Shown: piece by piece, positions 526-50,383 of the stretch | Numbering within the stretch: the first letter of the stretch is position 1 | Layout of the letters: each line of letters starts with the position of its first letter | Assembly (NCBI RefSeq): GCF_031954525.1 | Contig: NZ_CP134867.1 | Span: 4,898,001 to 4,962,000, forward strand | Direction: 5' to 3' | Source: Dyella sp. BiH032 | GTDB taxonomy: Bacteria; Pseudomonadota; Gammaproteobacteria; Xanthomonadales; Rhodanobacteraceae | DNA: 64,000 nt | Made by a program: the position numbers and the translations under genes | Notes under the pieces: model-generated | Database searches by the model: none | What the model was told of the DNA's origin: nothing | Seen by the model: the letters and a program-made list of their open reading frames with translations, nothing else

Positions 526-583
526 GCCACCGATACGCCCGAGCCGCAGATTGCGGTGAGCGCAGCGAACCCCGACAGCCACG

Positions 584-1037: not shown

Positions 1038-1060
1038 CTGTTCGTGAAATTGACGGAAGG

Positions 1061-1498: not shown

Positions 1499-1511
1499 GA
1501 AAACTTACTCG

Positions 1512-2540: not shown

Positions 2541-2788
2541 GCGCTCCCCCGCGTGGCCACACTGGCCGTTCCGCTCCACGACTCACAGCTGCCCGATTTA
2601 CAGGCGTGCACGATGTAGCCGCAGCTTGCATTGGTCTTTCTTGACGCGCTCCAGCTAGTGGCACTGTCCGATTGCAGGACACTTCGGGCCCCGCCATTGG
2701 CCTGTTTCTGAAGAACGTCCCTCGTGGTTTCGATGATATCCATTGGGCTCACCATGTTGATTCCGCCAATGCTGGCGCCAGGGCGCAC
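2537..2788 (-). CDS. Small FN3-like ORF between the two Rhs genes
   Basis: The frame has a GTG at 2788 and an alternative ATG at 2755; the only strong Shine-Dalgarno-like sequence (GGAGGGGG) lies about 20 bases upstream of the GTG. From about residue 36 it reads SVLQSDSATSWSAS...VHACKSGSCESWSGT. This is a diverged copy of the second half of the FN3-like modules in the upstream Rhs protein (pattern VQSNGxxSW...VQACNxGGCGxWSGT). Its stop TGA overlaps the start of the toxin gene (ATGA), which argues that it is translated and couples the toxin gene to the operon. It may be a real linker protein or a decayed module cut off from the large gene. No signal peptide is seen. Confidence 0.45.
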   Translation of the reverse strand: MRPGASIGGINMVSPMDIIETTRDVLQKQANGGARSVLQSDSATSWSASRKTNASCGYIVHACKSGSCESWSGTASVATRGSA

Positions 2789-2832
2789 TGATGTATAGAA
2801 GCGCCTGCCCCCTCCGATCTACAGTCCACTCC

Positions 2833-5800
2833 TCAATACGCCATGGACCACGACGAACACCCAACCGCGTTGCATGCGCGGACCTCATATGTATCCAGAG
2901 GTATCTGCCCCGTTGGACCGCTCTCGACGATGCTTGATGTGGTGGTTATTCCAGATTTGATGGCACCCGTACCAACGTTGTGAATGTCATACGACGTAGC
3001 CCCCGGAGAAGCTGTCCATTGAATGGTCAACGTCTCCGTCTTGGAGTTGGGAAAGCCGTCAATAGCTTGCACATTAGTTGGCGGCGGCGGAATGAGCGTC
3101 ACTGAGACATTGACGGTTCCGCTCCACGGTCCGCAGCCGCCGGCGTTGCATGCCTGCACGTGATAGCCGTAGGTACCATTACCTTTGCCGCTCGTGCTCC
3201 AGCTGCCCGCACCATTGGATTGCACAGTCGACCATCCCCCACCGTTCACTTGCTCCTGCAGGTTGTAGTACGTAGCGCCGCCCACGCCAGTCCAGCTCAC
3301 CGTGTAACTCCCATTCGTGCTGTTGCTTGGTGCACTGATATTGGGAGCGCTGTTTGGGGGGATGGTGACGGCCACGGTACCGCTTCCCGTAAAGCCGCTG
3401 CAGCCGCTTGCATTGCATGCCTGCACGTAGAACACCACGCTGCCTGTGGCGCCTTCGCTCGTGGAAACACTCGTTGCGTTGCCGCTGTACACACTGGTCC
3501 AGCCGCCACCATTGAAGCTCTGATCTAGGTTGTAGCTGGTGGCGGTGCTGGTAGCCGCCCAACTCACCGAAATCGGTCCACTGCTGGTGCCGGGTACGCT
3601 GATGCTTCCGGGCGCGGAAGGCGGCAGGAGAACCGTGGTCGTGCCCGTGCCGCTCCAACCTCCGCAGCCGCCAACATTGCATGCCTGAACGCGGTAGCTA
3701 TAGCTGCCATTGCCACGACCGCTGGTCGCCCAACTGGTGCTGCCATTGGACTGCACCGTGCTCCACGTGCCACCACCATTAATGCTTTCCTGCAGCGTAT
3801 AGCTGGTGGCAGTGCTCACGGCACTCCAGCTGATGGTGAAGCTCCCATTGGTGCTGTTGCCGGGTGCCGTAAGCGTCGGCGCACCGGCGGGTGGATGCGT
3901 CACAACCAGGGTTCCGCCGTTGGCCCATGCGCTGCAGTTGTAGGCATTGCAGGCTTCTACGCGATAAACGTAGCTGCCATTGGCCAGACCACTGATGGCG
4001 GTGCTGAGCGCGGCGCCGTTGTAGACCTGCGTCCAGTTGGTGCCGCCATCGCTGCTCTGCTGCGTAACGTAGTGCGTCACCTGCGCGACGGATGCCCAGC
4101 TGATCGTCGCGGTGCCATCCGCGCTGCTGGCCGGCACACTGACGCTGGCCGGTGCCGGCGGCACCACTCCATAGGTGGTGTCCACGGTGACTGCCGACGA
4201 CACCACCCAGCCACGCGTGCCATACGCATTCTTGGCTTGTACCTGGTAGGTGTAGCTGCCGCTGGTAGTACCCGGAAGGCTGATCGAGGTCGCCGTGGTG
4301 TTGAAGGCTATGGTGGTCCAGGCGCCGTTGTTGACGGCCTCCTGCACGTCGTAACTGGTGGCGGATACCGGTGCGCTCCAGCTCACCGAGTAATTGCCGT
4401 TGGTGATGCCGGTAGGCACTGTGATGGTCGGCTGTACCGGTGTCACGCCAAGTACCGACGAAACGGTCCATCCCGTGCAGCCAGCCGAAGCGCAGGCTTG
4501 CACTTCATAGGTGTAGCTGCCGCCTCCCTTGTTGATCAGGGCCAGGCTATTGCTCGTGAGCGTGCCGCCGCCCACCTGCGCCCAGGTCACGCCACCATCC
4601 GTACTCTCGTTGAGGTTGTAGCCGGTGGCCCCCGGAACGGCGGTCCAGCTCACCGTGTAGTTGCCGTCGTTGGGGTTGGCGCTGAAGCTGATGCTCGCCG
4701 GGGCGGACAGCTGCAGCGACTCGTTGCGCGCGATCAGCTTCTTGCCCAGGTAGATGTAGTTGGTGGCCTTGGATGCGCTGGCATCGAACGCGTACACCAG
4801 CTGCCCGGCCTGGGTATAGAAGTAGTAACTGGCGCCCGCTCCGCTGGCCGGCGCCTTCATCACGCGGCGGCCGGCGGCGTCGTAGGCGTAGCTGTCGTAG
4901 CCCTGTGAGCTCGTGAGCTGGTTCTTCTGGTCGAAGTTCAGCGCGACGCCATTGCGGTTGTTGACGTTGCCCCGGTTGTCATAGCCCAGGGTGACGACGC
5001 TGCTGGCACCCTGCGTAATGCCCGTCAAGCGATTGGTGGCGTCGTAGTTGTAGGTGAAGGTCTGGCCGCCGCTGACCCGGCTGCGGATGTTGTTGAGCGG
5101 GTCGTAGGCGTAAGTCTCGGTGCCCCAAAGGTTGTTGGCCTGCGCCGAGGTCAGGCGGTTGAGCGTGTCGTAGCCGAACGTCTTGCTACGGGTGCCGTTC
5201 GCCAGGTCGTTGATGCTGGTGATGTTGCCGTTGGCGTCGTAGGCGTAGTCCTCGCTCAGCTTCAGCGTGCCGCCGTTGCCATAGGTGACGTTGCTGAGCA
5301 GTTGCCGAGCGTTCTTCTGCACTGCGTACGAATCGCCGTTGCCGAAGGTGAATGACGCGATGTCCCCGTCCGGGTAGTAGGTGATGGCGGTGGCATAGGT
5401 GCCCACCTGGGTCGCCCGGCCTAGCGCGTCCGGCGCGTAGCTCACCGCCTCGCCGTTCGGATATTGGATGGTGCTCACCGACCCGTAAGCATCATGGGCG
5501 TAGCCCATGCGCCACAGGCCCTGGCCGCTGACTTGCAATGACTCGCCCGTGAGCTGGCCCAACTTATTGCGATAGGCGGTCCAATAGGTCAGGCCGGAGT
5601 TGGCCGTGGCGACGTTGCCAAGCGGATCATAGGTATACCTGGTGCTCTGCGTACCCGCCGGCGGCACCAAGGTCAGCACCCGGTTCATGGGGTCGTAGGT
5701 ACGTACGGTCTGGGCCGCGGAAGGCACTTGGTCCTGGCCGCAACCGCTGCCGGTGATCGAGAGCCCTGATGCTGTCCATGCGACGTTGTTCGCCGCGTCG

Positions 5801-8646: not shown

Positions 8647-9249
8647 TGCACACCCCTAGGTTGGCTTAGGTTTTCCAGCAATGGCCATGCCGATCGCATG
8701 GAAAAGCTCAACCCATCCGATCAGAACACGGTTCCGCCAGCTTGAGACCAAGAACGAATCACGTCGTGGTGACTTCTGGATGGAAAGCAGATTCGCTTGT
8801 GGTAGGACAAAACAGACTGCCGATTAGCGGCTATCGATGCCTGCCCGTCACGCATCTACGAACACACCCTGCCGACACGAGAGCAAGCAGAGCCAAATGT
8901 CCGGCTCTAGGCGGTACCGGGATAAAGGATTTCGTCAAAAGCGGCGGAAATAACTGCACGCGTGCCGGCCGCAATGGCTGGCCTTCCCCCCATGACGCTC
9001 CGTTTCGCAAGAGCGTGCTGGCAAGGCAAAGCGGCTTAACCATCCTTAGCCCCCCCCCAATCTGACCCACCCCATGCGCTGCGCATGCGTCGTAGGAAAC
9101 TACCCGTCCATTTATGCAAAAAGCAACTAGTAATTTCTTGCGCATCTTTGGCGTAAATTCATGCCGCAAACGAGCCGGCGGCACCTTATCCAATCTAGAC
9201 AAGCCCCCCGACCCGTGCCCACGATCACATAGATAACCCTGGGGGACAC
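8647..9249. other. Intergenic region between the divergent Rhs and TMEM175 genes, with a leader hairpin
   Basis: No convincing gene is present in these 603 bases. An inverted repeat lies 25-60 bases before the Rhs start: TTTTCCA (8671-8677) with TGGAAAA (8699-8705), and inside it CCATGC (8685-8690) with GCATGG (8696-8701). It would fold in the Rhs mRNA leader. A run of nine C residues sits at 9050-9058. Composition is less GC-rich than neighbouring genes, suggesting the region belongs to the island. No clear -35/-10 pair was found for either gene. Confidence 0.5.
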
Positions 9250-9885
9250 ATGAGCAAGAACGCCTCGCAACTCGAACGCCTCACCTTCTTCTCCGATGCG
9301 GTGTTCGCCATCGCCATCACTTTGCTGATCATCGAGGTGCACGTGCCGCACGTGAGCGGTGGGGACGATGCGGCGTACTGGCAGGCGCTGGCGGAGCTGC
9401 GGCCCAGCCTGTTCGGGTTCATGCTGAGCTTTCTGGTGATCGGTGCCTTGTGGATGGCGCATCACCGGGTGTTCGGCATGCTGGCGGATTACAGCCAGAA
9501 GATCCTGTGGCCGAACATGTTCCTGCTGATGGTGGTGGCCTTCATGCCGTTCGTGACGGCGCTGATGAGCGCGCATCCGCTGGCGCGGGTGCCGGAGCTG
9601 TTCTATTCGGGCACCTTGCTGGCCGCGGGCCTATTGCAGAACCGGCTGTTCTCGCTGGCGCTGCGCGCGCCCTACGTGCGCGACGACGTGCCGGCGGAAG
9701 AAGTCGCGGCCGCGCGCTGGCGGTCGTGGGGCATGCCGACGTCCGCCGCGCTGTCGCTGATCGCAGCCTGGTTCGTGCCGGGGTGGAACAATTTCTTGCT
9801 GCTCAGCATTCCGCTGCTGGTGCGGTTGTATGCTGCCGCGGGCCGGCGCCGCACGCTTCGCCTGCAGGCGGCTGCCGGCGCCTGA
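9250..9885 (+). CDS. TMEM175-family (DUF1211) membrane protein, putative potassium channel
   Basis: 211 aa with six likely transmembrane helices. The family signature FFSDAVFAIAIT sits at residues 13-24 in the first helix. In TMEM175 proteins the FSD motif and the pore-lining residues of helix 1 form a potassium-conducting channel. A second family feature, GALWMAHHRVFGML, lies near residues 70-85. Start ATG has GGGGGA 5 bases upstream. It is followed after 16 bases by another integral membrane gene on the same strand, so the two may be co-transcribed. Bacterial members act as tetrameric channels of two-repeat homologues; this protein has a single repeat, the normal bacterial form. Confidence 0.85.
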   Translation: MSKNASQLERLTFFSDAVFAIAITLLIIEVHVPHVSGGDDAAYWQALAELRPSLFGFMLSFLVIGALWMAHHRVFGMLADYSQKILWPNMFLLMVVAFMPFVTALMSAHPLARVPELFYSGTLLAAGLLQNRLFSLALRAPYVRDDVPAEEVAAARWRSWGMPTSAALSLIAAWFVPGWNNFLLLSIPLLVRLYAAAGRRRTLRLQAAAGA

Positions 9886-9901
9886 TTTCAGGAGCCCCCC
9901 C

Positions 9902-10561
9902 ATGCCTGCCCGCTTCCGCCTGTTCGCCGCCACGGCCGCCGTGCTGGGATGGTTCGCGCTCGGCTTGCAGCTGCTGTTGTCGATCCAGCTGACCCGGGCG
10001 AACGGCCAGGGCGCGCTGGCCGGGGTGTGGAGCTACCTCGGTTTCTACACCGTGCTGACCAATATCCTGGTGGCGATGGTCCTGACGGCCGGCGCGCTTG
10101 GGCCGCGCGGGGCGGTGACGCGGTTTTTCGGGCGTCCGGACGTCGCCTCGATGGCGGCCATGAGCATCGTCGTGGTCGGCATCATCTACAACCTGCTGCT
10201 GCGGCAGTTGTGGCATCCCGAGGGTTGGCAACTGTTCGCGGACGTCACCTTGCATGACGTCATGCCGATCGCGTTCCTGCTGTACTGGTGGTTCGCCGTG
10301 CCGAAGACCGCGCTGCACTGGCGGCAGATTCCGGCCTGGCAGAGCTACCCCATCGCCTACTTCGCCTATGCCTTGGCGCGCGGTGCGGTGAATGGCTGGT
10401 ATCCCTATCCTTTCCTGGACGTGGCGCACGAAGGCTACCTGCAGGTGGTGATCAACGCCGTGATGGTGTTGTTGTTCTTCATCACCGTGGCCCTGGTGCT
10501 GGTGGGGTTGGGCCGCTGGCAGGCCCGCCGCGCGGCGCAGCCGGCCACCCAGCCGATCTGA
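9902..10561 (+). CDS. Pr6Pr-family integral membrane protein
   Basis: 219 aa with about six transmembrane helices. Family-like features are SYLGFYTVLTNILVAMVL in helix 2, VGIIYNLLLRQLW, the polar LHDVMPIAFLLYWWF segment, and AYFAYALARGAVNGWYPYPFLD before the last helix. The family (FAR-17a/AIG1-like, Pr6Pr) has no established bacterial function. I chose the ATG at 9902 because CAGGAG lies 9 bases upstream and an earlier in-frame start would add 24 non-hydrophobic residues inside the preceding gene. It lies 16 bases after the TMEM175 gene. Confidence 0.8.
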   Translation: MPARFRLFAATAAVLGWFALGLQLLLSIQLTRANGQGALAGVWSYLGFYTVLTNILVAMVLTAGALGPRGAVTRFFGRPDVASMAAMSIVVVGIIYNLLLRQLWHPEGWQLFADVTLHDVMPIAFLLYWWFAVPKTALHWRQIPAWQSYPIAYFAYALARGAVNGWYPYPFLDVAHEGYLQVVINAVMVLLFFITVALVLVGLGRWQARRAAQPATQPI

Positions 10562-28880: not shown

Positions 28881-30242
28881 TCAGTACAGCGGCGTCCCCG
28901 CGCCGTAGGCGCCGACGAAGGATTGCCAGTCGAGCTCCACCTGATCGGCGTAGCCGAAGGCGAACGCCGAGATCTCCGAGGCCAGCCCGCTCGTGCTGGT
29001 CACCGCATTGCTGACCTGCTTGTCGATGCTGTAGCCGACGATGGCGCTGTCGTAATCCTGGTCGGCAAGCGCGTGGGCCGAAGCCAGGGCCTGGCCGAGA
29101 TATGTGGCGGCCGTGCTCAGCTTCCCGGCGCTGGTCAGCTGGGTGGCATCGAAGTCTTCCGCGTAAGGAGACTTCTCATGGACGTAGTACGCCAGGCCGC
29201 CGATCGTGGCGTAGCCGATCAACATATCGGCGTTCAAGGTCTGCGCCTTCGCCGTCATCGCCACGCGCTGGCCTTCGTGATAGCCGTAGTCGGCTGCCGG
29301 GAGCTGTCCGGCAGCTGCGCCCGCCACGGCGCTGGCGACTTCCTGCTTGGCTTCCAGGATCACGTCGTCCGACGCAGACGTGGAAGGCCCTTCGACCAGA
29401 ATGTAGTAGCGCAGCTTGCCCAGGCTGCCGATGCCCGAACCCAGCTTCTGGCGGATGTCTTTCACCTGGTAGTAGCTCGCGGCGTAGCGCTTGGACGTGG
29501 CGATGCTCGCCACGTAGCCGCTCATCGCGGCGACGATGTTGCCGTAGGTGGTGCTGTCGACCGCGGCCAGCTTGCCGGCGATGGTCTGGAAGCTGCGCGT
29601 GCTGCCATTGAGTTGCGTGTATTTGGCCAGCAGGTCGGCGCGAGTGTCGGTCTTCGACGCGTCGATCGTGTCCTGCACCACGCCGGAGGTATTGCCGCTC
29701 TTGAGCTGGAAGCTGGACTCGGCGCTGCTGCCGGCGAAGTCGTTCATCTTGTCGACGTAGGCGCCGACCATGCCCTTGATCGCGCTGCCGATGTCGCTGT
29801 CGGCCAGGCCATTCTCCCGGCCGGCCAGCACCATGCCGGTGGCGAGGCGGCGCAGGTCCCATACGTACTGGCCCAGATAGCCTTCGTCGAAGTCGTCCGC
29901 GGTGAACACCGTATTGCCGCCACTGTCCTTCCACGCACCGAAGTTGCCGACGTGCGCGTCGCCGCCGATCCAGGTATAGCCGGTCTGCGCGGTGGCGTAG
30001 CTGGAAGCGGGTAGCGTGCGCATGTCCTGGTAGAAGAGCTGCGCGGTGCCGCGGTAGAAGTTGGAAGCGCTGGCCGCCATCGTCGACATCTTGGTGGCGA
30101 GCTCCGCATGGTCCGTGACGGCGAGCGGATGATTGCTGGCGTAAACCTGCGCCACGACCCAGCTGGTCCGCGAGGTGGCGGCGTGCGCGACGGACGCGCA
30201 CAGCAGGCTGGCGGCGGACAGGACGACCCACGCTTTCTTCAT
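28881..30242 (-). CDS. Exported DUF2252-family protein
   Basis: 453 aa with a signal peptide (residues 1-21, LSAASLLCASVAHA). DUF2252 features are FYRGTAQLFYQDM, the glycine-rich GDAHVGNFGAW, FTADDFDEGYLGQYVWDLRRLATGMVLA, and later PYAEDFDATQL. Their layout (GDxHxxNFG followed by DDFDE) recalls the catalytic loop and metal-binding motif of aminoglycoside-phosphotransferase-like kinases, but no activity is proven. Export to the periplasm, where ATP is scarce, makes ordinary kinase action unlikely. GGGGAAAG lies about 6 bases before the ATG. The aminotransferase terminator sits just upstream. Confidence 0.88.
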   Translation of the reverse strand: MKKAWVVLSAASLLCASVAHAATSRTSWVVAQVYASNHPLAVTDHAELATKMSTMAASASNFYRGTAQLFYQDMRTLPASSYATAQTGYTWIGGDAHVGNFGAWKDSGGNTVFTADDFDEGYLGQYVWDLRRLATGMVLAGRENGLADSDIGSAIKGMVGAYVDKMNDFAGSSAESSFQLKSGNTSGVVQDTIDASKTDTRADLLAKYTQLNGSTRSFQTIAGKLAAVDSTTYGNIVAAMSGYVASIATSKRYAASYYQVKDIRQKLGSGIGSLGKLRYYILVEGPSTSASDDVILEAKQEVASAVAGAAAGQLPAADYGYHEGQRVAMTAKAQTLNADMLIGYATIGGLAYYVHEKSPYAEDFDATQLTSAGKLSTAATYLGQALASAHALADQDYDSAIVGYSIDKQVSNAVTSTSGLASEISAFAFGYADQVELDWQSFVGAYGAGTPLY

Positions 30243-30343: not shown

Positions 30344-31546
30344 TCAGCCCTTGCTGACGGCCGCCACGGCCGCCGCCACGGTTTCCAGGTTGGAACGATT
30401 GAGCGCCGCCACGCAAATGCGGCCGGTGCCGATCGCATAGATGGCGTACTCCTCGCGCAGGCGATCCACCTGGGCCTTGCTCAGGCCGGAGTAGGAGAAC
30501 ATGCCCGCCTGCTGCTGGATGAAGCCGAACTGCGGCGCGCCATGCGCGGCGAGCTTCTCCACCATGCCGGCGCGCATCGCGTGGATGCGTTCGCGCATCT
30601 CGCCCAGTTCCTGTTCCCACATCGCGCGCAGCTCGGGGCTGTTGAGCACGCCGGCCACCAGGGCGCCGCCGTGAGTGGCGGGGCTGGAGTAGATCGAGCG
30701 GATCACACGCTTGACCAGCGACTGCACGCGCAGCGCCTCGTCGCGATCGGCGGCAACGAAGGACAGCGCGCCGGCGCGCTCGCCGTACAGCGAGAACGAC
30801 TTGGCGTACGAGCTGGTCACCACGAAGGATTCGATGCCCGAAGCGGCGAACAGGCGCACCGCGGTGGCGTCCGCGTCGATGCCCTGGTCGAAGCCCTGGT
30901 AGGCCATGTCGATGAAGGGCAGCAGGTTGCGCTCCTTCACCAGCTCGGCCACCTGCTGCCATTGCTCGGCGTTGAGATCCACGCCGGTGGGGTTGTGGCA
31001 GCAGGCGTGCAGCAGCACGACGGTGCCCGGTTCCAGCTTGCCGAGGTCCGCCAGCATGCCGGCGAAATCCAGGCCGTGCGTCTGCGGGTCGTAGTAGGTG
31101 TACTCCACCACCTCGAAGCCGGCGGCGAGGAACACCACGCGATGGTTTTCCCAGCTCGGGCTGCTGATGGCGATCTTCGCCTTGGGCAGCGCCTTCTTCA
31201 GCGTGTCCGCGCCCACGCGCAGCGCGCCGCTGCCGCCGATAGTCTGCGAAGTGGCGACGCGACCCGCCGCCAGCAGCGGCGACTCGGGGCCGAACACCAG
31301 CTTCTGCGTGGCCTGGGTGTAGGCGGGCAGGCCGTCGATCGGCAGGTAGCCGCGCGGTTTCGCTTCCTGCGCCAGGCGCTGCTCCACTTCGCGCACGGCG
31401 CGCAACAGCGGGATCCGTCCCTGTTCGTCGTAGTAGATGCCTACGCCAAGATTGACCTTGCCCGGGCGCGTATCGGCGACATAGGCCTCGGTGAGCCCCA
31501 GGATCGGATCGCCCGGGGTCATTTCAACGGATGCAAAGTGCGACAC
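30344..31546 (-). CDS. Aromatic-amino-acid/aspartate aminotransferase (TyrB/AspC type)
   Basis: 400 aa, a class I fold-type I PLP enzyme. It opens with PGDPILGLTEAYVADTRPGKVNLGVGIYYDE, as AspC and TyrB do. The PLP lysine is K249 in SSYAKSFSLYGERAG; LLHACCHNPTGVDL and FIDMAYQGFDQG are the cofactor-binding loops, and the substrate arginine lies in GRICVAALN. It transfers the amino group between aspartate or aromatic amino acids and 2-oxoglutarate. AspC and TyrB cannot be told apart by eye. I use a GTG at 31546; an ATG at 31522 is possible. A terminator follows. Confidence 0.93.
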   Translation of the reverse strand: MSHFASVEMTPGDPILGLTEAYVADTRPGKVNLGVGIYYDEQGRIPLLRAVREVEQRLAQEAKPRGYLPIDGLPAYTQATQKLVFGPESPLLAAGRVATSQTIGGSGALRVGADTLKKALPKAKIAISSPSWENHRVVFLAAGFEVVEYTYYDPQTHGLDFAGMLADLGKLEPGTVVLLHACCHNPTGVDLNAEQWQQVAELVKERNLLPFIDMAYQGFDQGIDADATAVRLFAASGIESFVVTSSYAKSFSLYGERAGALSFVAADRDEALRVQSLVKRVIRSIYSSPATHGGALVAGVLNSPELRAMWEQELGEMRERIHAMRAGMVEKLAAHGAPQFGFIQQQAGMFSYSGLSKAQVDRLREEYAIYAIGTGRICVAALNRSNLETVAAAVAAVSKG

Positions 31547-31781
31547 AGCAGGAACTCGCGATTGGCTGGGGAGAAGAGTGGGGCTGGCGGGATGTTCGGC
31601 CGGCCGAGCCGATCCACTATAGCAGCGGGCGCCCGCAGCAGCAGCGTTTGGCCATCCACCCGGCGAAAGCCGCGAGCCGCCAGGACGCGCCGAAGCCTCC
31701 CCTTTGGACGCTCACGAATTCTCTGCGCGGACGCCGCTAAGGTCGCGCCGATCGAAGGATGGGTTCGATGGGGAGAAGGCG

Positions 31782-34700
31782 ATGGACGGCGTTTTCATTT
31801 CCCTGCATACATGCCTGGACCGGCAGGCGGCCATAGCACCGGACCGAGAGCTGTTCAGCTTCATCCACGGCTCGGGGGAGAAGGCAGACCGACTGACCTG
31901 TGCGCAACTGACCGCGCGCGCAAAAGCGCTTGCGCAGGCGCTGCTCGATGCCGGCGGCAAAGGCCAGCGCATCCTGCTGCTGTTCACTCCCGGCCTGGAT
32001 TTCGTCGTCGCCTTCTACGCCTGCCTGTACGCGGGCGCGGTCGCCGTCCCGGCCTATCCGCCCGACCCTTCGAACCTGCAGCGGACCTTGCCGCGCCTCA
32101 AAGCGGTGGTCACGGATTCGACCGCCAGCCTGATCGTCACGAGCCGGCAGATCCTGGCGTTCAAGGACTATCTCTCCCGCCTGGTGCCGGAGCTGGCCGT
32201 GCCGGCATGGCTGGATGCGGAAGCGGAAGTGGGCGATACGTCCGCTGACCTGGCTCCGTCATTCCCTTCGCCGGACGATCTGGCGCTGATCCAGTACACC
32301 TCCGGCTCCACGGCGGCGCCCAAAGGCGTGATGGTCAGCCATGGCAACCTGATGGCGAACATGCGCATGTTCCAGCGCGCCGGCCGGCTGACGCCGGATT
32401 CGAGAATCTTTTCCTGGCTGCCGACCTATCACGACCTGGGCCTGATGTGCGGCGTCATGTTGCCGGTCGGCGCTGGCTGCACGGCGCAGCTCGCCTCGCC
32501 CTTGGACTTCCTGAAACGGCCGGCGCTCTGGCTCGATGCCATCCACCGCGAACGCATCACGCATACCTGCGCGCCCAACTTCGCGCTCGACCTGGCCTCG
32601 CGCAAGGCTGCGGACGCGGGCGCCGGCTGGCAGCTCGACTGCCTGCAACTGTGTCTGGTCGGCGCCGAACCGGTCCGCCTCGCTTCGCTTGAACGGTTCG
32701 CCACCACCTTCGCGCCGCAGGGACTGCGTCGCGAAGTGCTGCTGCCCGGCTATGGCCTCGCGGAAGCGGTCGTGGGCGTTTGCTCGACCCCGTTTGCCGA
32801 GGGCTGGCACGTCGTTTCCGCCGACACCGAAGCGCTTGCGCGCAACCGCTTCGAGCCCGTGGCGCAGCAAGCATCGCGGTCCATCCCCATCGTCTCCAGC
32901 GGCGTGCCTTGCGAAGGCGTGCGCGTCGCCATCGTCGACCCGGCGACGCGCCGCGAATGCGCTGCCGGGGACATTGGCGAAATCTGGATCGAGGGGCCGC
33001 ATGTCGCGCAAGGCTATTGGGGCATGGAGCAGGCGGACGAAAGCCCGTTCCGGGGCACCATGGAGGGTAGCGAAAGCGACACCTGGCTGCGCAGCGGCGA
33101 CCTCGGTTTCATCGAGCGCGGGCACATCTACGTGACGGGGCGCATCAAGGACCTGATCGTCGCACGCGGCGCCAACCACTATCCGCAGGACATCGAACAC
33201 ACCGTCGAACAGGCCCACCCATCGGTACGGCCGGGCGCGGTGATCGCGTTCGCTATCGAGCAAACCGGCGAAGAAGCGCTGGCGGTCGTTGCGGAGATCG
33301 CGCCTCCTGCCGAGGAGACCGTGGTCGTGGATATCGTCCGCGCCATCCAGGCCCAGGTGCTGCAGGTGCATGGACTGGCCGTCGCTTCCGTCGCCCTGAT
33401 CAAACCCCGCAGCATCGACAAGACATCGAGCGGCAAGCTTGCCCGGCGGGCCTGCAAGGCGCGCTTCCTCGGCGGCCACCTCGATGCTTATTTCCAGGGA
33501 AGCCTTCCGCGCGCACCGGCCCGCGCGGAGGACACCCCGACCGCATCGGCGCCAACACCCGCTCCTACGGCGATGGCAGCGGCAAGAGCGGCGACGGTGG
33601 ATGAAGCGCTGCGCCACCTGGTCAGTGAACTGACCTCCGTACCGATTGGCGATCTCGCCCCGCATACCCGGCTGGCCGAGATCGGGATGGACTCCTTGCT
33701 GGCGGCCGAACTGGCCAGCGTTCTGGAACGTCGCCTGGATCGGGAACTGAGCGTGGTGGATGTGATGCGCTCGACCACGCTGGCCGCGCTGCAGGACGCC
33801 ATCGACGCCGCGCCGCGCCGGTCGTCGGAAGACGGGCCGCCACAGGCGGCGCGACTGCGCCATGCCAGGCCGCTGGAGCCGCTGACGCTGTCAGCGCCGC
33901 TTTTCGTGGTCGGCGGGCTCTTCGGCAGCGTCGCCTATCTGCTCTCGCTGGCCCGCGCCCTCGGCACGGATCGGCCTTGCATCGCGTTCCAGGCTGCCGG
34001 GATAGACGCTACCGAGCCGCCCCTGGGTTCGGTCGAGGAAATGGCGCGGCGCTATATCGGCGAGTTGAAGGCGATCCAGCCGACCGGCCCCTACCATCTC
34101 GCCGGCCACTCGTTCGGCGGGCTGGTAGCCTTCGACATGGCCAGGCAGCTCACCGAGCAGGGCGACGAGGTCGCCGACTTGCTGCTGCTCGACACCACGA
34201 CCGTCGGCGGCCCGGGGCCGTCCGATATGCCCGCCGATGTCATGGCGCTGTACGAGCTGGCCTATGTCGCGCACCGCTTCACCGGGCGCGCCATGCCAGG
34301 CGGATCGGTGGACGCGCTGGCCGGGCTGGATGCACAAACGCAGCGCACCCTGCTCGCGGACGAGCTGCGCGGAAACGCGGGGAATGCGCTCGCCGGCGAT
34401 TCGCTCGACGCCCTGGTCCGCGTGCATATGGCGAGCTTCGACGCGATGGTGGCTTACGAGCCCCGGTATTACACGGGACCGGTCGTGCTGTTCCGCGCAC
34501 TTGGCGGTTTTCCCAGGCACGCCGTCCATCCTGCGCGTCGCCTGGAGCATCGCTTCGACGAGCGAACCATGGGCTGGGACCGGCATTGTCCGCGTTTGTC
34601 GATCGTGGAGGTTCCCGGCGATCACTACGCCATGGTGCTTGCGCCCCACGCGCAGACCCTCGCCGAGGCGATGAACGCCCGCCTGCGTCCGACGCGCTAT

Positions 34701-36020
34701 GAACTGACGCTCACCCGGCTGGCTGGCCGGCCCCTGGCGAAGGGCGAGGGACGTGCGTTCGCCGCCACGCACGACAGCATCGTGTTCCATCCCGAACACG
34801 ACGATTTCATCGAAGACCCTTATCCCATCCTCCGGCAGCTGCGGGCTCGCGAGCCGGTCTACCGCATGACGGACGCATCCACCGGCGCGTCCGTGTGGTG
34901 GCTGACGCGCCATGCCGACGTCTCGGCCGCGCTGCGCGACAAGCGGCTTCTGCTGGATGGCCGCCATCTCCTGGGCGAAAGCACGCCTTCCGAGAAGAGC
35001 GGGGTGGTGACGATCATTTTCCAGCTCATCCGGCAGCGCTCCGGTCCTGCCGCGGACTTCATCAACCAGGCCATGCTTTTCATCGACGGCGAGGCGCACC
35101 GACGCCTGCGCCATCTGATGAATCCCTTGTTCGACGCGGCGTCGGTGCGGCGCTGGCAAGCTTCCATCGATGAGCGGACGAACTATCTCGCCCGGCGTCT
35201 GCGCGATGCCGACCAGCCGGACATCATGCGGGATTTCGCCCTGGGCCTGCCCAGGCACGTGATGTTCGGCATGCTGGGTATTTCCGTTCGCGACGCGGAA
35301 GCGCTGGACGCGCTGGCGGGCGATGCCTTCCGCATCATCGAGGCGACCGCATTCGCCGGCGACCCCACCCGGGCCGAAAAAGCCATCGCCACGGTCATGG
35401 ACTACCTGCGCGCCCACGTCGCCGAACGCCGCCGCACGCCGGCACGCGACGATCTGCTGGGGCATCTGCTGGACGTGCGTGCGAATGGCGACCGCCTGTC
35501 GGACGAAGATCTCGCGGCGAACTGCTCGCTACTGCTGCTTGCGGGCACCGAAGTGCTGTCCTATGCGATCGGCAACGGCGTGCTCGCGCTGCTCAGGCAT
35601 CCGGACCAGCACGAACGCTTGCGTCGCCAGCCCGAGCTGGTGGATTCGGCCATCGAGGAGCTGCTGCGGTACGACGGCCCCATGCGCACGAACATCCGCG
35701 TCGCGGCCGAAGATCTAACGATTGGCGACCGGCTCGTGCGCCGCGGCGAACCGGTCGTGCTCGACCTGGGTGCGGCCAATCGCGATCCGGCCATGTTTCC
35801 GCATCCCGACCGGCTCGATCTCGCGCGGCCGATCCGGCAGCTCACCGCATTCGGCCAGGGCGTGCATTACTGCCTGGGCGCGCCGCTGGCCAGGCTGCAG
35901 ATGCGCAGCGCGCTACTGGCGCTGTGCCAGCTTCGCTTCGAACGAGTTCCCGGCCAGCTGGTCTGGGAAAAGAGCAGCGTCGTGCGCCGCCTGCAACGGT
36001 TCGGCGTCCGTTTCAGCTGA
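31782..36020 (+). CDS. Four-part fusion: fatty acyl-AMP ligase, acyl carrier protein, thioesterase, cytochrome P450
   Basis: 1412 aa from the ATG at 31782 (GGGGAGAAGG just upstream). Residues 1-570 are a fatty acyl-AMP ligase: [34 protein letters not shown] typical of FAALs, [18 protein letters not shown], and SSGKLARR with the A10 lysine near 551. Residues 600-680 are a carrier domain with Ser638 in [10 protein letters not shown]. Residues 700-960 are a type I thioesterase with S777 in AGHSFGGLV and the histidine in GDHYAMV. Residues 1000-1412 are a P450: AGTEVLS I-helix (1254 on), ExxR E1293-R1296, and heme ligand C1364 in [12 protein letters not shown]. The likely course is that a fatty acid is adenylated, loaded on the carrier, oxidised by the P450 and freed by the thioesterase. 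No reductase partner is adjacent. It stands alone and overlaps ttcA's 3' end by 8 bases. Confidence 0.93.
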
Positions 36021-36897
36021 GCGCGGCTTCGTCATCGGCGGGCGCACCGGCTAGCCATTGGTGCGCGTCCGCGCGGGCCGCGCCTTCGCGCGAGCCGAGC
36101 GAGGCGAAATCGAACAGGTGGCGGTCGGCCAGCTGGGAAGGCGCCACCGAACCGAGCGCGCGGAACATAGTTTCGCTGCGGCCCGGATACTGCTTTTCCC
36201 AATCCTCCAGCATGCGCTTGACCACCTTGCGCTGCAGGTTCTCCTGCGAGCCGCACAGGTTGCACGGGATGATCGGGAACTGCCGCTGCCCGGCGTATTC
36301 GGCGATGTCGCTTTCCTTGCAGTACGCCAGCGGGCGAATCACCACGTGGCGTCCATCGTCCGAGCGCAGCTTCGGCGGCATCGCCTTCAGGCTGGCCTGA
36401 TAGAACAGGTTGAGGAAGAACGTGCCGAGGATGTCGTCGCGATGGTGGCCTAGCGCGATCTTGGTGATGCCGTTGGCCGCCGCCCAGGTGTACAGCGCGC
36501 CGCGCCGCAGGCGCGAGCACAGGCTGCACATGGTCTTCCCTTCCGGAATCACGCGCGTGACGGTGCTGTAGGTGTCCTGCTCGATGATGTGGAACGGCAC
36601 GCCGCGCGCGGTGAGGTAGTCCGGCAGCACGTGTTCCGGGAAGCCAGGCTGCTTCTGGTCCAGGTTCACCGCGATCAGCTCGAAATGCACCGGCGCCTTG
36701 GCCTGCAGGGACAGCAGGACGTCCAGCAACGTGTACGAATCCTTGCCGCCGGAGAGGCAGACCATCACCTTGTCGCCCTCTTCGATCATGTTGAAGTCGG
36801 CGATGGCCTGGCCGACCTGGTGACGCAGGCGCTTGGCCAGCTTGGCGGCCTCGTACTGCTGCTTGCGATGGGCGTCGGGCTGGACGGACATAGGCAT
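36013..36897 (-). CDS. ttcA: tRNA 2-thiocytidine biosynthesis protein TtcA
   Basis: 294 aa. TtcA thiolates cytidine 32 in tRNA using ATP and a 4Fe-4S cluster. The PP-loop [14 protein letters not shown] lies near residue 48, the first cysteine pair is in [14 protein letters not shown] and a further pair is in [34 protein letters not shown] is also diagnostic. Two starts (36897 and 36891) are equally plausible. The 3' end overlaps the convergent FAAL-P450 gene by 8 bases, so the two transcripts run tail to tail. Confidence 0.95.
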
Positions 36898-45321: not shown

Positions 45322-45861
45322 ATGAGCAAGAACGTCATTGCCACCGCCCTGATCGCCGCCCTGGGCTTCGCCGCCCTGGCCCCGAATCAGGCTTCCGCCG
45401 CCGACGGCACCATCAACATCACCGGCTCGGTCAACGCCTCCACCTGCAAGATCAATGGCGGCAACAGCCCGGCCACCGTCAACGTGGCCCTCCCGACCGT
45501 GTCCACCACGTCGCTGAGCGCCTCCGGCCAGACCGCCGGCCGCACCGCCTTCGCGCTGAACCTGACTAACTGCGGTTCCCTGACCAAGGCCCAGACCTTC
45601 TTCGAGCCGGGCCCGACCATCATGGCCGACGGCAACCTGAAGAACGCCTCGGGCACCGCCACCGGCGTGGAAGTGCAGCTGCTCAACAGCGACTTCACCA
45701 CGATCAACCTGGCCGGCACGGCCTCCACGCAGTCCTCGCAGCAGGCCACGCTGACCAGCGGCGCCGGTTCCCTGAACTACTACGCGCAGTACTTCGCGAC
45801 CGCCGCCGCCGGCGCCGGTACCGTGAGCACCAGCGTGCAGTTCACGATGCTGTACCAGTAA
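45322..45861 (+). CDS. Chaperone-usher fimbrial major subunit
   Basis: 179 aa. Signal peptide residues 1-27 (ALIAALGFAALAPNQASAA). The mature pilin starts DGTINITGSVNASTCKING, the classic donor-strand and first cysteine, with the second cysteine in LNLTNCGSLTKAQ about 40 residues on. It ends in the beta-strand motif VSTSVQFTMLYQ with the penultimate tyrosine recognised by the chaperone. It is the first gene of a four-gene operon (pilin, chaperone, usher, tip-like). A strong hairpin follows before the chaperone gene, which may favour pilin over downstream genes. Confidence 0.92.
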   Translation: MSKNVIATALIAALGFAALAPNQASAADGTINITGSVNASTCKINGGNSPATVNVALPTVSTTSLSASGQTAGRTAFALNLTNCGSLTKAQTFFEPGPTIMADGNLKNASGTATGVEVQLLNSDFTTINLAGTASTQSSQQATLTSGAGSLNYYAQYFATAAAGAGTVSTSVQFTMLYQ

Positions 45862-45898
45862 GACCCGCGGCAACGCGGTGTTGTAAGAGGCAAGTCCG

Positions 45899-45945
45899 CG
45901 CCGGAACCCCGAGCGGTTCCGGCGCTCTCCGCCGCCAGGCGGCGG
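45899..45945 (+). terminator. Intercistronic hairpins after the pilin gene
   Basis: Perfect 10-bp stem CGCCGGAACC/GGTTCCGGCG with loop CCGAGC (45899-45924), then a second GC-rich stem around CCGCCGCC/GGCGGCGG (45929-45945). No T run follows, so partial termination or mRNA protection of the pilin segment is more likely than full termination. Confidence 0.55.
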
Positions 45946-45972
45946 ATTCTGATTTCGCAGCGAGGGAAACCC

Positions 45973-46710
45973 ATGAGGAAGTTCGTCTGCGCCCTGGGCG
46001 CGGGCCTGCTGGCCCTGTGCCTCGGCGCCCCGGCCGCGCACGCTAATGTGCTGATCGGCGGCACCCGTGTCGTGTTCCCCGCGAAGGACGGCGAGGTCAC
46101 CGTGCGCCTGACCAACGACAACGACCACCCCGTGCTGGTCGAGTCGTGGATCGACCGCGGCGACGTGCATTCCACCCCCGAATCCGTCGATGTGCCGTTC
46201 CTGATCACGCCGCCGCTGTTCCGCATGGAGGCGAAGAAGGAACAGAGCCTGCGCATCGTCTATACGCACGAGCAACTGCCCGCGGACCGCGAGTCCCTGT
46301 TCTGGCTCAACGTGCTCGAAGTGCCGCCCAAGCCCGCCGGCCCGCAGGCGGAAGGACAGAACCTGCTGCAGCTGGCGCTGCGTTCGCGGCTGAAGCTGTT
46401 CTACCGCCCGGCCGGCCTGCAAGGCGATCCGCTGAAGGCGCCCTCCCAGCTCACCTGGAAGGTCGATGCCGACGGCAAGGCCCTGGTCGCGCACAACCCC
46501 ACGCCGTTCCACATCACGATTTCCGAGATCTCGGTGAACGTCGGCGGCAAGAATGTGAGCGCGGAGCTGGGCATGGCCGCGCCGCTCTCCGACCTGCGCC
46601 TGCCGCTGGCCGCCGGCGCGCCGCGTCCGACCGCCGGCAGCGCGGTGAAGTACACGGCCATCAACGACTACGGCGCCGCCGACAGCTACACGGGTACGGT
46701 CGCGCCGTGA
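45973..46710 (+). CDS. Periplasmic fimbrial chaperone
   Basis: 245 aa. Signal peptide residues 1-25 (LGAGLLALCLGAPAAHA). PapD-like domains: NVLIGGTRVVFPAKDGEVTVRLTNDNDHPVLVESWIDRG, FLITPPLFRMEAKKEQSLRIVY and LPADRESLFWLNVLEVPPKP, the chaperone signature. The cleft Arg and Lys are in TRVVF and RSRLKLFYRP. It caps pilins by donor-strand complementation and takes them to the usher. GAGGGAAA precedes the ATG. Its stop overlaps the usher's GTG start (GTGA). Confidence 0.95.
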   Translation: MRKFVCALGAGLLALCLGAPAAHANVLIGGTRVVFPAKDGEVTVRLTNDNDHPVLVESWIDRGDVHSTPESVDVPFLITPPLFRMEAKKEQSLRIVYTHEQLPADRESLFWLNVLEVPPKPAGPQAEGQNLLQLALRSRLKLFYRPAGLQGDPLKAPSQLTWKVDADGKALVAHNPTPFHITISEISVNVGGKNVSAELGMAAPLSDLRLPLAAGAPRPTAGSAVKYTAINDYGAADSYTGTVAP

Positions 46711-49442
46711 GCTTCCTGCGCGCCAGGGACGGCCACGCCCGCGCCCTCGGCCATCCGGCCCGGCGCGCGCTGCTGTGCCTGGCGATCGCCGGCGCGCTCG
46801 GCCTGTCCCACGCGGCGACGGCGACGGACGCTTCGCCCAACGGTGCGTCCGCCTCCGCGGCGGTCGACGCCAGCTTCGACCGCAACCTGCTGTCGGGCGC
46901 CGGCCGCAACACCGGCGACATCAGCCGTTTCGAGCGCGGCCCAGTGATCATGCCGGGCACGTACCGCACCGATCTTTTCCTCAACGGCGCCTGGGTCGGC
47001 CGCGCCGACGTGCGCTTCGCTGCGCCGAAGCCGGACGCGGGCGCGATTCCCTGCCTCACCCGCGCGCTGTACGACCAGCTCGGACTGCCGCTGCAGAAGC
47101 TTTCCGCCGAACAGCAGGCCAGTCTCGCCGCCACGGGTTGCATCGACATCGGCGAACTCATTCCCAGTGCAGCGATGAATTTCGACCAGCCGAACCTGCG
47201 GCTGGACGTGAGCATTCCGCAAGCCTGGCTGGGCACGCGCGCGCGCGGCTACGTCAGCCCGGAAAACTGGGACCGCGGCGTGAACGCGGCGCTGCTCAAC
47301 TACAACTTCAACAGCTACCGCAGCACCAGCCGCGGCGTGAGCCAGACCTCGTCCTTTCTCGGCCTCAACGCGGGCCTGAACCTGGGCGGCTGGCAGCTGC
47401 GCCACGATTCGACGCTGCTGATGCAATCCGGTGCGGCTGGCACGCCTTCGCGCCGGCGCTGGCAGAACCTCGACACTTACCTGCGCCGCGACCTGCCCTC
47501 GTGGCGAGCACAGATGGTGATCGGCGATTCGTATACCGGCGGCGAACTGTTCGACAGCGTCAGCCTGCGCGGCGTGCGCATCGCCACCGACGACCGCATG
47601 CTGCCGGACTCGATGCGCGGCTACGCGCCGACCGTGCGCGGCGTGGCGGAGACCAACGCGAAGGTCACCGTGCGCCAGAACGGCGTGGTGCTGTACGAAA
47701 CCACGGTCGCGCCGGGCCCGTTCACCATTGCCGACCTCTATGCCACCGGCTATGGCGGCGATCTCAACGTGACCGTGACGGAAGCGGACGGCCGTGTGCG
47801 CACCTTCGCCGTGCCCTACGCCTCGGTGCCGCAGCTGATGCGCCCTGGCGTCACGCGTTTTTCGGTGGCGGCGGGCGAGCTGCACGATGCCTCGATCCAC
47901 GCGCGTCCGGCGCTGGCGCAGGCGACGATCCAGCACGGTTTCACCAATCTGCTCACCGGCTATGCCGGCATCGTGGCCTCGTCCGGCTACGGCGCGGCGC
48001 TGCTGGGCGGCGCGCTCAATACCCGCTACGGCGCGCTGGCGCTGGACGTGACCGCGGCGCGCGCGGAGATCCCCAACCAGGCCACCCAGAACGGCCAGAG
48101 CGTGCGCCTGAGCTACAGCAAGATCCTGCCCGACAGCGATACCTCGTTCTCGCTGGCCACCTATCGCTATTCGACCAGCGGCTACCTCGGCCTGCGCGAC
48201 GCCATGCTGGCGCGCGACCTGGCGCGCGGCTATCGCTACGTCGATCCGACCACGGTCAGCACGATCGACGGCGTCATCGTGAACAACGTGCTCACGCCCG
48301 AGCAGCGCAGAGCGCTGTCCGGCGACACGACCAACGACTTCACCGCCTACAGCAGCCAGCTCGACCGCCAGCGCAGCCGCTTCGACATCAACGTCAGCCA
48401 GCGGCTTGGCCAGCACGGCGGCTCGCTGTACGTGACCGGCTCGGCCGCCGATTACTGGAACCGTCCCGGCACCGACGTGCAGTTCCAGCTCGGCTACAAC
48501 AACACCTTCCGCCGCCTCAGCTACAACCTGTCGGCCACGCGCCTGCGCGATGCCTACGGCCGCTACAGCAACCAGTTCTTCGCCAGCTTCACCTTGCCGC
48601 TGGGCGACAGCCTGCACGCGCCGATGTTCGGCGCCAGCCTCAACCGCGACAGCAGCGGCCGCACGATGGAACAGGCCACGCTGAGCGGCACCGCCGGCGT
48701 GGACAACCAGTTCAGCTACGGCGCCACCGCTTCGCACGACCACGGCGGCGGCAGCACGGATACGGGCAGCTCGGGCACGGTCTACGGCGGATACCGCGGG
48801 CCGTACGCGCAGGTCAACGCCAGCTACGGCAGCGGCAAGGGCTACTCGCAAGGCTCGGTGAACCTGTCCGGTTCGATCGTGGCGCATGCCGGCGGCGTGG
48901 TGTTCGGCCAGCCGATGGGCGACACGGTGGCCATCATCGCTGCGCCGGATGCCGCGGGCGCGCGCGTGGTCAATGCCTCCGGCGTGCGGATCGGCCACGG
49001 CGGCTACGCGCTGGTGCCGTACCTGACGCCCTACAACCTCAACACCGTGCAGGTCGATCCGCGCGGCCTGCCGCTGTCGGTACAGCTGGACAGCACCAGC
49101 AGCCAGGTGGCGCCGCATGCGGGCGCGGTGGTGCTGGTGCGCTTCAAGACGTCGAGCGGCCGCTCGATGATCGTCCGCGTGCACCAGAGCGACGGCAAGC
49201 CGGTGCCGTTCGGCGCCGACGTGCTGGACGAGCAGGCGCGCAGCGTGGGCGTGGTCGGCCAGGCCGGACGCATCCTGGTCCGCGGCGCCAACGAAAGCGG
49301 CCGCCTGACCGTGCAGTGGACGGTCGGCGACGACCAGCCGGTGCGCTGCAGCTTCCCCTATCAGTTGCCGGCGGCCGCCAAGGGCCGCGGCGATGTCTAC
49401 GAACAGATCGAGGCGACGTGCGCGCCGGGAGACAAGTCGTGA
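46707..49442 (+). CDS. Outer-membrane fimbrial usher
   Basis: 911 aa from a GTG at 46707 overlapping the chaperone stop by 4 bases; no ATG is available before the domain. Signal peptide about residues 20-40. The N-terminal domain reads FDRNLLSGAGRNTGDISRFERG...GTYRTDLFLNGAWVGRADVRF, the pore region has the usual FNSYRSTSRGVSQTSSFLGLNAGLNLGGWQLR and DSMRGYAPTVRGVAETNAKVTVRQNG, and the C-terminal domains contain GAVVLVRFKTSSGRSMIVRV. It forms the assembly pore. Size is normal (800-900 aa). A subunit gene follows with a 1-base overlap. Confidence 0.95.
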   Translation: MSFLRARDGHARALGHPARRALLCLAIAGALGLSHAATATDASPNGASASAAVDASFDRNLLSGAGRNTGDISRFERGPVIMPGTYRTDLFLNGAWVGRADVRFAAPKPDAGAIPCLTRALYDQLGLPLQKLSAEQQASLAATGCIDIGELIPSAAMNFDQPNLRLDVSIPQAWLGTRARGYVSPENWDRGVNAALLNYNFNSYRSTSRGVSQTSSFLGLNAGLNLGGWQLRHDSTLLMQSGAAGTPSRRRWQNLDTYLRRDLPSWRAQMVIGDSYTGGELFDSVSLRGVRIATDDRMLPDSMRGYAPTVRGVAETNAKVTVRQNGVVLYETTVAPGPFTIADLYATGYGGDLNVTVTEADGRVRTFAVPYASVPQLMRPGVTRFSVAAGELHDASIHARPALAQATIQHGFTNLLTGYAGIVASSGYGAALLGGALNTRYGALALDVTAARAEIPNQATQNGQSVRLSYSKILPDSDTSFSLATYRYSTSGYLGLRDAMLARDLARGYRYVDPTTVSTIDGVIVNNVLTPEQRRALSGDTTNDFTAYSSQLDRQRSRFDINVSQRLGQHGGSLYVTGSAADYWNRPGTDVQFQLGYNNTFRRLSYNLSATRLRDAYGRYSNQFFASFTLPLGDSLHAPMFGASLNRDSSGRTMEQATLSGTAGVDNQFSYGATASHDHGGGSTDTGSSGTVYGGYRGPYAQVNASYGSGKGYSQGSVNLSGSIVAHAGGVVFGQPMGDTVAIIAAPDAAGARVVNASGVRIGHGGYALVPYLTPYNLNTVQVDPRGLPLSVQLDSTSSQVAPHAGAVVLVRFKTSSGRSMIVRVHQSDGKPVPFGADVLDEQARSVGVVGQAGRILVRGANESGRLTVQWTVGDDQPVRCSFPYQLPAAAKGRGDVYEQIEATCAPGDKS

Positions 49443-50383
49443 TGCGCCGGGTTCTGCTCTTGCTGCTGACGATCGTGCTCGGGCTGCCGCTCGCGGCGCA
49501 GGCCCGCTGCAGCTTCACCAGCGGCGGTACGGCGAACGTCAATATCTCGTTCCCCAACTCCACCATCACGATCGATCCCAATCTGCCGGTGGGCGCCGTG
49601 CTGGCGACCTCCGCGCAGTTCTCGCCCTCGCCCGTCTCGCAGATCTCGTGCACCGGCACCACCGCGATCGGCGTGCAGAACGTCGCCGGCAGCCAGCCGA
49701 GTTCAGGGTCGATCATCTTCCCGACCGGCGTGGCCGGCATCGGCTACCGGGTGACCCACCCGGATACCTCCAACTACCTCGCGGCCTATCCGGGGGATTC
49801 GATCGCCTCGGGCAGCTACCAGATGTCGGTGACGTCGGGACTGGAGTTCGTCAAGACCGGCCCCATCGCCAACGGGGCGACGGTGAGCAGCGGCACCATG
49901 GGCTACTGGCGGTACGACAGCAACAGCAATTCGCGGATCGAGAACTTCAACCTCGGCACCACGCTGACCTTCATGTTTCCCTCGTGCTCGGTCAACACGA
50001 GCACGATCAACGTCACCTTGCCCACCGTTTCGAATACCGCATTCAACGGCGTGGGTACCGTCGCCGGCGCGACGGTGGTGCCGATCTCGCTGCAATGCGC
50101 CTCGGGCAGTCAGCTGTACATCCAGTTCGATACGGCCAATCCGGTCGGCGGCGCCACCGGTGTGATCGCGCCGGCGACGGGCACTGGCCGCGCCAAGAAC
50201 ATCGGCGTGCAGTTGATCAATCAGAGTTTCACGCCGGTGACGTTCGGTACGCCGGCTTTGGTCGGCGCCACGCCGGACGGTCCGTTGAACCTCACCTACT
50301 ACGCGCGCTATTACCAGACGGCCACGCCGGTAGCGGCGGGTACGGTCAGTGCGACGGCGACGTTCACCCTGACGTACCAGTGA
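49442..50383 (+). CDS. Fimbrial tip-like subunit with two pilin-type domains
   Basis: 313 aa. Signal peptide 1-20 (LLLLTIVLGLPLAAQA). Unlike the major pilin it is long: an N-terminal beta domain (about 21-175) starting RCSFTSGGTANVNISFPNS, and a C-terminal pilin-like domain (about 176-313) with FMFPSCSVNTSTINVTLPTVS and final strand ATATFTLTYQ. This two-domain design is that of tip adhesins, where the first domain binds a receptor; the ligand is unknown. The ATG overlaps the usher stop (TGATG). It is the last gene of the operon. Confidence 0.88.
   Translation: MRRVLLLLLTIVLGLPLAAQARCSFTSGGTANVNISFPNSTITIDPNLPVGAVLATSAQFSPSPVSQISCTGTTAIGVQNVAGSQPSSGSIIFPTGVAGIGYRVTHPDTSNYLAAYPGDSIASGSYQMSVTSGLEFVKTGPIANGATVSSGTMGYWRYDSNSNSRIENFNLGTTLTFMFPSCSVNTSTINVTLPTVSNTAFNGVGTVAGATVVPISLQCASGSQLYIQFDTANPVGGATGVIAPATGTGRAKNIGVQLINQSFTPVTFGTPALVGATPDGPLNLTYYARYYQTATPVAAGTVSATATFTLTYQ

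Follow-up and report, generated by a model that had tools for sequence, protein, structure and literature searches.

The DNA analysed here is a 64,000-nucleotide stretch of the genome of Dyella sp. BiH032 (NZ_CP134867.1, positions 4,898,001 to 4,962,000), referred to throughout as the window. It contains a gene for a 1412-residue protein that combines, on one chain, a predicted fatty acyl-AMP ligase (FAAL), an acyl carrier domain (ACP), a thioesterase (TE) and a cytochrome P450 (Table 1). An earlier note on this DNA had read these four domains from motifs; the frame is intact and the Pfam matches lie in the same order, with AMP-binding at residues 12–413 (4e-72), a DIP2-like AMP domain at 457–569, PP-binding at 608–672, Thioesterase at 706–806 and p450 at 1092–1382.

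Table 1. The four-domain gene, its functional residues and its surroundings (positions in the window; residue numbers in brackets).
Feature	Position	Strand	Basis
FAAL-ACP-TE-P450 gene	31782..36020	+	single open frame, ATG 31782 to TGA ending 36020, 1412 aa
likely ribosome-binding site GGGGAG	31770..31775	+	7–12 bases before ATG 31782, read directly
fatty acyl-AMP ligase domain (5–569)	31794..33488	+	PF00501 + PF23024; best solved relatives FAALs
A10 lysine K552	33435..33437	+	23/23 FAAL-bearing rows of alignment A1
carrier domain (608–672)	33603..33797	+	PF00550, 8.6e-13
phosphopantetheine serine S638 (DSL serine)	33693..33695	+	43/43 rows
thioesterase domain (about 706–970)	33897..34691	+	PF00975, 1.9e-25 over 706–806; end near 970 judged by alignment
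TE nucleophile S777	34110..34112	+	43/43 rows
TE histidine H948	34623..34625	+	43/43 rows
cytochrome P450 domain (about 1005–1412)	34794..36017	+	PF00067, PDB matches
I-helix A-G-T-E-V-L (1254–1259), threonine replaced by V1258	35541..35558	+	alignments
ExxR motif E1293–R1296	35658..35669	+	43/43 rows
heme-ligand cysteine C1364	35871..35873	+	43/43 rows
inserted segment, about 4.48 kb, one gene + ~220 bp upstream	31560..36040	.	blastn vs L123–L127, sequences read
class I/II aminotransferase, conserved flank, outside system	30344..31522	-	PF00155
PP-loop ATPase, conserved flank, outside system	36013..36891	-	PF01171

Residue conservation was scored in an alignment of the window fragment with 42 proteins picked from the 120 listed in the protein search below (A2, 43 rows), and in a second alignment with 23 FAAL-bearing rows and 4 further rows that lack the FAAL (A1). 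The residues singled out by the earlier note (S638, S777, E1293/R1296 and C1364) show no variation over the 43 rows, and the A10 lysine that it had described as intact is K552. The Ser-Asp-His triad of the TE is complete, its aspartate D804 being present in 41 of the 43 rows. When the FAAL part was compared with solved structures, the top 15 matches, classed as FAALs by entry names and by recall, scored 412–214 bits, NRPS (nonribosomal peptide synthetase)-type adenylation domains 178–150 and CoA synthetases at most 120; the best were 7r7f, 3kxw, FadD23 and FadD32. FAAL models also lead the NCBIfam matches, behind one NRPS/PKS (polyketide synthase) model that matches by its first part. By these comparisons the ligase domain stands closer to FAALs than to acyl-CoA ligases. 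The top NCBIfam match of the P450 part, a P450-derived glycosyltransferase activator (TIGR04515), raised the question of a degenerate P450, which we reject: the score of 158 bits falls short of the cut-off of 343, and the P450 part keeps its heme cysteine.

A frameshift or an assembly join between the domains, which the earlier note had named as grounds for refutation, left no sign and was rejected. Besides the intact frame, the closest relatives, known from separate records, have near-identical lengths (P0001, 99% identical and of the same length; P0002, 83%, 1406 aa; P0003, 73%, 1399 aa), and the window gene is therefore no assembly product. In addition, FAAL, TE and P450 distances correlate over the 35 rows that hold both ends of the protein (Mantel r 0.88–0.95; FAAL against P450 0.946; in each case 0 of 999 permutations as high), and the three domains thus evolve as a single unit. 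A PKS or NRPS fragment was likewise rejected, because start and stop are intact and the site has no partner genes. Consensus searches for a promoter or terminator of the gene found none, and PADLOC gave no match that would indicate a role in defence.

Comparison with five other genomes of the genus shows that the gene is a lone insert. The segment is missing at this site in all five: nucleotide homology stops at 31546–31559 and resumes at 36035–36041 (blastn), and the flanking aminotransferase and PP-loop ATPase genes (the latter presumably TtcA-like), about 4.5 kb apart in the window, are separated by 55–81 bp in every relative (tblastn bounds). Since the flanks are adjacent in the relatives, the insert brought only this gene; none of the five matched over the P450 part at E 1e-100. 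The GC content at third codon positions is 0.822 in the gene, compared with 0.882 on average (sd 0.042) over 35 genes of the window, this one among them; as it is the fourth lowest of these, the insert looks largely ameliorated. No exact repeat longer than 8 bp is common to both junctions, as a target-site duplication would be, and a 15-bp repeat pair lies inside the 5' part of the insert only. Pfam analysis of all 19 genes called at 18.5–44.9 kb returned peptidases, transporters, a TonB receptor, RdgC, regulators and similar families, with one gene of no family; there was no desaturase, PKS, NRPS or second P450 among the matches and no biotin-specific family, two being general alpha/beta hydrolases. 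The earlier note's picture of a gene standing alone, with no PKS or NRPS beside it, is borne out.

A similar situation was found in a second genus, where 2 of 16 genomes carry a form without the FAAL, one copy having an in-frame stop and the other (G134) being intact. In all 14 others the same flanks, which we take to be undecaprenyl-diphosphatase-like and peptide-deformylase-like genes, lie 30–2359 bp apart (less than 160 bp in 11), with no match to the FAAL-less form between them at E 1e-8. Ten genes scanned around a full-length copy in genome G396 belong to sigma-factor, regulatory, lytic and sensor families. A relative in the Pseudomonadaceae (G1174, contig 14, L114 and L115) is flanked by transposase genes at distances of about 0.9 kb (before) and 1.2 kb (after), its frames being split near the TE/P450 border. 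No neighbour is common to these four sites, a comparison that the earlier note had proposed, and as a lone gene stands at each of the two sites for which empty counterparts are documented, the enzyme seems to bring no partners. Near the G396 relative (L101, 6135–7714), DUF2063 and MbnB/TglH/ChrH genes lie beside a sigma factor with two NrsF-type regulators.

The earlier note had found the architecture unfamiliar; a search for the same domain order shows that it is not unique but belongs to a recurrent family. From 5.8 billion proteins searched, 8000 candidates were scored; 1313 of them matched at E 1e-3, and 120 of these were listed. The first 34 of these are protein clusters with AMP-binding, thioesterase and P450 domains on chains of 1328–1744 aa, so that at least 34 clusters carry this architecture; all 34 have the carrier serine, and 32 of them a PP-binding annotation. 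The clusters come from Gammaproteobacteria, Collimonas and Sorangium, and among the hosts named are Pseudomonas, Lysobacter, Luteibacter, Halomonas, Serratia, a Collimonas metagenome-assembled genome and Sorangium. An acyl-CoA-binding domain (ACBP) is annotated in 6 of the 34 clusters and was confirmed at the N-terminus of the three scanned (P0006, P0013 and P0020; Pfam, E 1e-21 to 2e-23), which suggests a long-chain acyl substrate. Relatives without the FAAL were listed from Halomonas and Microbulbifer. They stand beside full-length forms at two or more places in a 45-protein tree (a quick method with several long branches and a midpoint root), and this scatter makes repeated loss or splitting-off of the FAAL probable. 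ACP-TE-P450 is the constant core of the family and the FAAL a dispensable part. The placing of the TE before the P450, which had seemed odd, is real and is a fixed trait of the family, being found in 43 of 43 rows with FAAL-less forms included; for that reason it has no bearing on the order of reactions.

It can be seen from the genome samples examined that the fused family is rare and patchy. Within the family of the window genome, matches at E 1e-100 came from 10 of 147 genomes, but in only three, the strain's own included, did they take in the P450 part; in the order the count is 4 of 398 at E 1e-125, each match extending over the P450; and in the class 2 of 369 match, one being the strain's own and the other matching by residues 21–668 alone. 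With the Pseudomonas protein P0015 as query, a single one of 398 Pseudomonadaceae genomes matched at E 1e-150, by a copy that reads in two frames. The strain's own genome has two P450s in all. Carriage by phages or plasmids was rejected, no record covering 80% of the query: the best 20 of 62 plasmid records all match the FAAL part, two of these matches continuing as far as the carrier or the TE. Records named Acinetobacter phage MD-2021a hold a FAAL-like AMP-dependent synthetase, 34% identical to the FAAL part (CAKLQH020000009.1, 107710–109371). Of the 80 loci listed in a scan of contigs, most held actinobacterial P450s. The one listed match that covers both FAAL and P450, at a Micromonospora locus (L019, 9938–17685), is not the fusion: a P450 gene of its own stands there immediately ahead of a FAAL-led gene of 2182 aa judged by eye to be an NRPS.

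Among solved structures the best match to the P450 domain is PDB 9w6b, followed by PksS, a vitamin D hydroxylase and BioI. The analogy with BioI drawn by the earlier note therefore stands as one lead, BioI being among the best solved matches, but 9w6b and PksS score higher. The 408 aligned residues of 9w6b are 100% identical to stand-alone P450s of Pseudomonas aeruginosa (P0241 and P0242), and its existence implies work on a close P450 in one laboratory or more. This P450 is 437 aa long in 9w6b and 444 aa in other strains; the window P450 domain shares 38% identity with the longer form (P0258), and the P450 of the fused protein P0028 shares 60% with the 9w6b type. About 40% identity is the level used in naming P450 families. 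In a tree of 75 P450 domains, unrooted in substance (45 from fused or core proteins, 5 near and 25 far stand-alone), 9w6b groups within the fused set, with P0028 as its sister (100/100), and the 25 far P450s form one branch; leaving out eight rows (seven long ones and P0003) did not change the nesting. This position makes it most likely that the P. aeruginosa stand-alone P450 descends from a fused form. It belongs to the same clade as the window P450, and differs in having no FAAL, ACP or TE on its chain and in keeping the I-helix threonine. It may be CYP168A1 (PA2475), which, according to Tooker and colleagues in 2022, reportedly hydroxylates fatty acids near the chain end. Two listed proteins have other arrangements: P0282 (464 aa) has an apparent TE tail before the P450 and looks like a cut-down fusion, and P0281, from P. 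aeruginosa, has an FHA domain (source name TagH) fused to the latter half of a 9w6b-type P450, possibly through an assembly or deletion join.

Canonical P450 monooxygenases carry an acid-alcohol pair (Glu/Asp-Thr) in the I-helix. In the window P450 the acid, E1257, is present, whereas the alcohol is replaced by V1258. The window clade reads AGTE-V-L or AGTD-V-L, most of the family AGFE-T-T or close to it; of the 43 rows, 36 have Thr at position 1258, 4 have Val (the window and P0001–P0003, two of these four being 99% identical), 2 have Ser and 1 has Pro. A further 120 listed P450s, chosen by similarity to the window P450 (118 with the P450 domain alone, P0122 with a TE and P0233 with another domain), have Thr in all 120, and at position 1257 Glu in 108, Gly in 10, Asp in 1 and Gln in 1. 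The window clade has therefore lost the threonine. EryF and P450cin are exceptions to the threonine rule, in which protons are delivered by the substrate or other residues. The missing threonine suggests that substrate or water must help to activate O2 in the window clade, or that the outcome is other than plain hydroxylation. The substitution is not decay, as the P450 is conserved as much as the FAAL within the clade: window identities to P0002 and P0003 are 87% and 77% for the P450 and 86% and 76% for the FAAL.

Our preferred reading, held with moderate confidence, is that the gene encodes a self-contained, horizontally acquired fatty-acid tailoring enzyme, which would oxidise an acyl chain bound to its own ACP and release it. 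Every chemical step is predicted from the domains; in these enzyme families the expected order is acyl-AMP, acyl-S638, oxidised acyl-S638 and free product. An Sfp-like transferase of the cell would install the phosphopantetheine arm on S638; the strain's genome encodes one PF01648 protein, by sequence an Sfp-like phosphopantetheinyl transferase, which would presumably have to serve all of its carriers. The FAAL would adenylate a free, probably long-chain, fatty acid and hand the acyl group to this arm, which would offer the chain to the P450. Electrons for the oxidation would come from a ferredoxin and reductase of the host; no reductase is fused to the P450, and the genome gives five Fer2 matches. 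The TE, through S777-D804-H948, would then hydrolyse or cyclise the product off the arm, giving perhaps a free fatty acid with a subterminal hydroxyl group or some other oxidation, or the lactone of such an acid. This fits the earlier note's proposal of free acid in and oxidised acid out; its choice between a hydroxylated, cleaved or desaturated acid is not narrowed by the sequence.

Several observations weigh against this reading. V1258 weakens the case for a plain monooxygenase, and the P450 chemistry of the window clade is the least certain step. As the FAAL-less forms show, loading of the ACP-TE-P450 core does not have to depend on this FAAL, and genome G134, which has such a form, gives no match to the window FAAL at E 1e-15. 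The gene looks broken in G017 (in-frame stop) and in G1174 (two frames) and would then be dispensable there, and the G396 relative has a MbnB/TglH/ChrH gene of the RiPP (ribosomally synthesised and post-translationally modified peptide) type about 3.8 kb away, beyond opposite-strand genes. Finally, the P. aeruginosa protein shows that a P450 of this type can exist without a carrier. The window P450 might accordingly oxidise free fatty acids, with FAAL-ACP-TE activating the hydroxy acid afterwards to give a lactone or ester. The stand-alone state of the closest solved P450, possibly a free fatty acid hydroxylase, speaks for this order of events, but we consider it unlikely, because the constant core and the dispensable FAAL tie the P450 to the carrier. 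More doubtful is the idea that the P450 of the window clade has lost its oxygenase function and persists as a leftover or structural domain. Val1258 in all four clade members and the long stem of the clade (0.83 in the 75-domain tree, 1.06 in a reduced tree) would fit such a loss; the intact heme cysteine and ExxR motif, and a P450 as well conserved as the FAAL, do not.

Known systems suggest two further explanations. P450BioI (CYP107H1) is a bacterial pimeloyl-ACP synthase acting on ACP-bound fatty acyl chains, its encounter with ACP being the subject, by its title, of a structural paper; it would share with the window P450 a carrier-bound acyl substrate, and differs in being a separate protein with no FAAL or TE. 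A BioI-like C-C cleavage of long-chain acyl-ACP to pimelate or another dicarboxylate would agree with such a substrate, with the rank of BioI among the solved matches and with the JGI name pimeloyl-[acyl-carrier protein] synthase borne by 27 of the 120 further P450s. It is nevertheless very improbable, since 9w6b and PksS outscore BioI, the 19 neighbours point to no biotin gene, and a gene missing from this site in all five genus relatives can hardly be a core biotin step. Alternatively, the enzyme could act in trans for an NRPS, PKS or polyyne pathway encoded elsewhere in the genome. Passages of PMC8406139 describe alkyne/polyyne cassettes made of FAAL, ACP, TE and desaturases and, in 10 actinobacterial genomes, a P450 gene in place of the TE and rubredoxin. 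In FAAL-ACP starter modules and such cassettes (JamABC type) a free acid is activated and loaded on a carrier, as we propose for the window enzyme, and a separate TE and, in some genomes, a P450 gene occur as well; they consist of several genes with desaturases, whereas the window has one gene and no desaturase among the 19 neighbours scanned. The Micromonospora P450 gene directly before the FAAL-led NRPS gene, and a condensation-adenylation-carrier-TE protein near 1.08 Mb in the strain's own genome, would suit a role in trans. This too is improbable: no desaturase or NRPS lies among the 19 neighbours, the compared sites have no neighbours in common, and the enzyme's own TE would release the product. 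The CYP152 fatty acid peroxygenases, such as YbdT, also oxidise fatty acids, for lipid products according to PMC3111633; unlike the enzyme proposed here they use H2O2 on the acid, and the window P450 matches the NCBIfam model CypC weakly, at 4e-6 and with 26 bits where the cut-off is 600.

Elsewhere in the window, a DUF2252 protein (28881–30242, minus strand) lies between the TonB receptor and the aminotransferase; it adjoins the aminotransferase in two of the five genus relatives and was not found in 20-kb stretches of the other three. An RHS-repeat protein (PF05593; 2833–7206, minus strand) and a GGDEF piece (639–980, minus strand) lie within positions 1–10000, where GC is lower (0.57–0.64 in 2-kb steps) and which are possibly foreign DNA. 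A chaperone-usher fimbrial set (45322–50383, plus strand) comprises a FimA-like subunit, a PapD chaperone, an usher and an adhesin with a MrkD-like tip domain.

Among the papers listed by searches of open-licence full texts none describes the fusion, judged on titles and abstract openings, and a published characterisation, which the earlier note had allowed for, did not come to light. We conclude that the window gene belongs to a real, recurrent enzyme family, whose predicted function is a variant of known carrier-bound fatty-acid tailoring, here in one inserted gene. A wider proposal, which we put forward only tentatively, is that these proteins form a widespread, undescribed class of one-gene mobile fatty-acid tailoring enzymes, with a fixed ACP-TE-P450 core and optional ACBP and FAAL, that may make oxidised signals or lactones without a pathway; the stand-alone P. 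aeruginosa P450 would have its ancestry in this class, and the window clade would have abandoned the I-helix threonine in favour of substrate-assisted or non-hydroxylating P450 chemistry on the carrier-bound chain. P450s acting on carrier-bound chains are known from multi-protein pathways, whereas here loading, oxidation and release would sit in one gene, and because that gene travels alone its product should be findable by a single expression experiment. The fusion would offer an acyl-ACP and a P450 already paired, in which the encounter of a P450 with its carrier could be studied, the window clade a natural test of the I-helix threonine rule, and the fused family an evolutionary origin for the solved P450 of P. 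aeruginosa.

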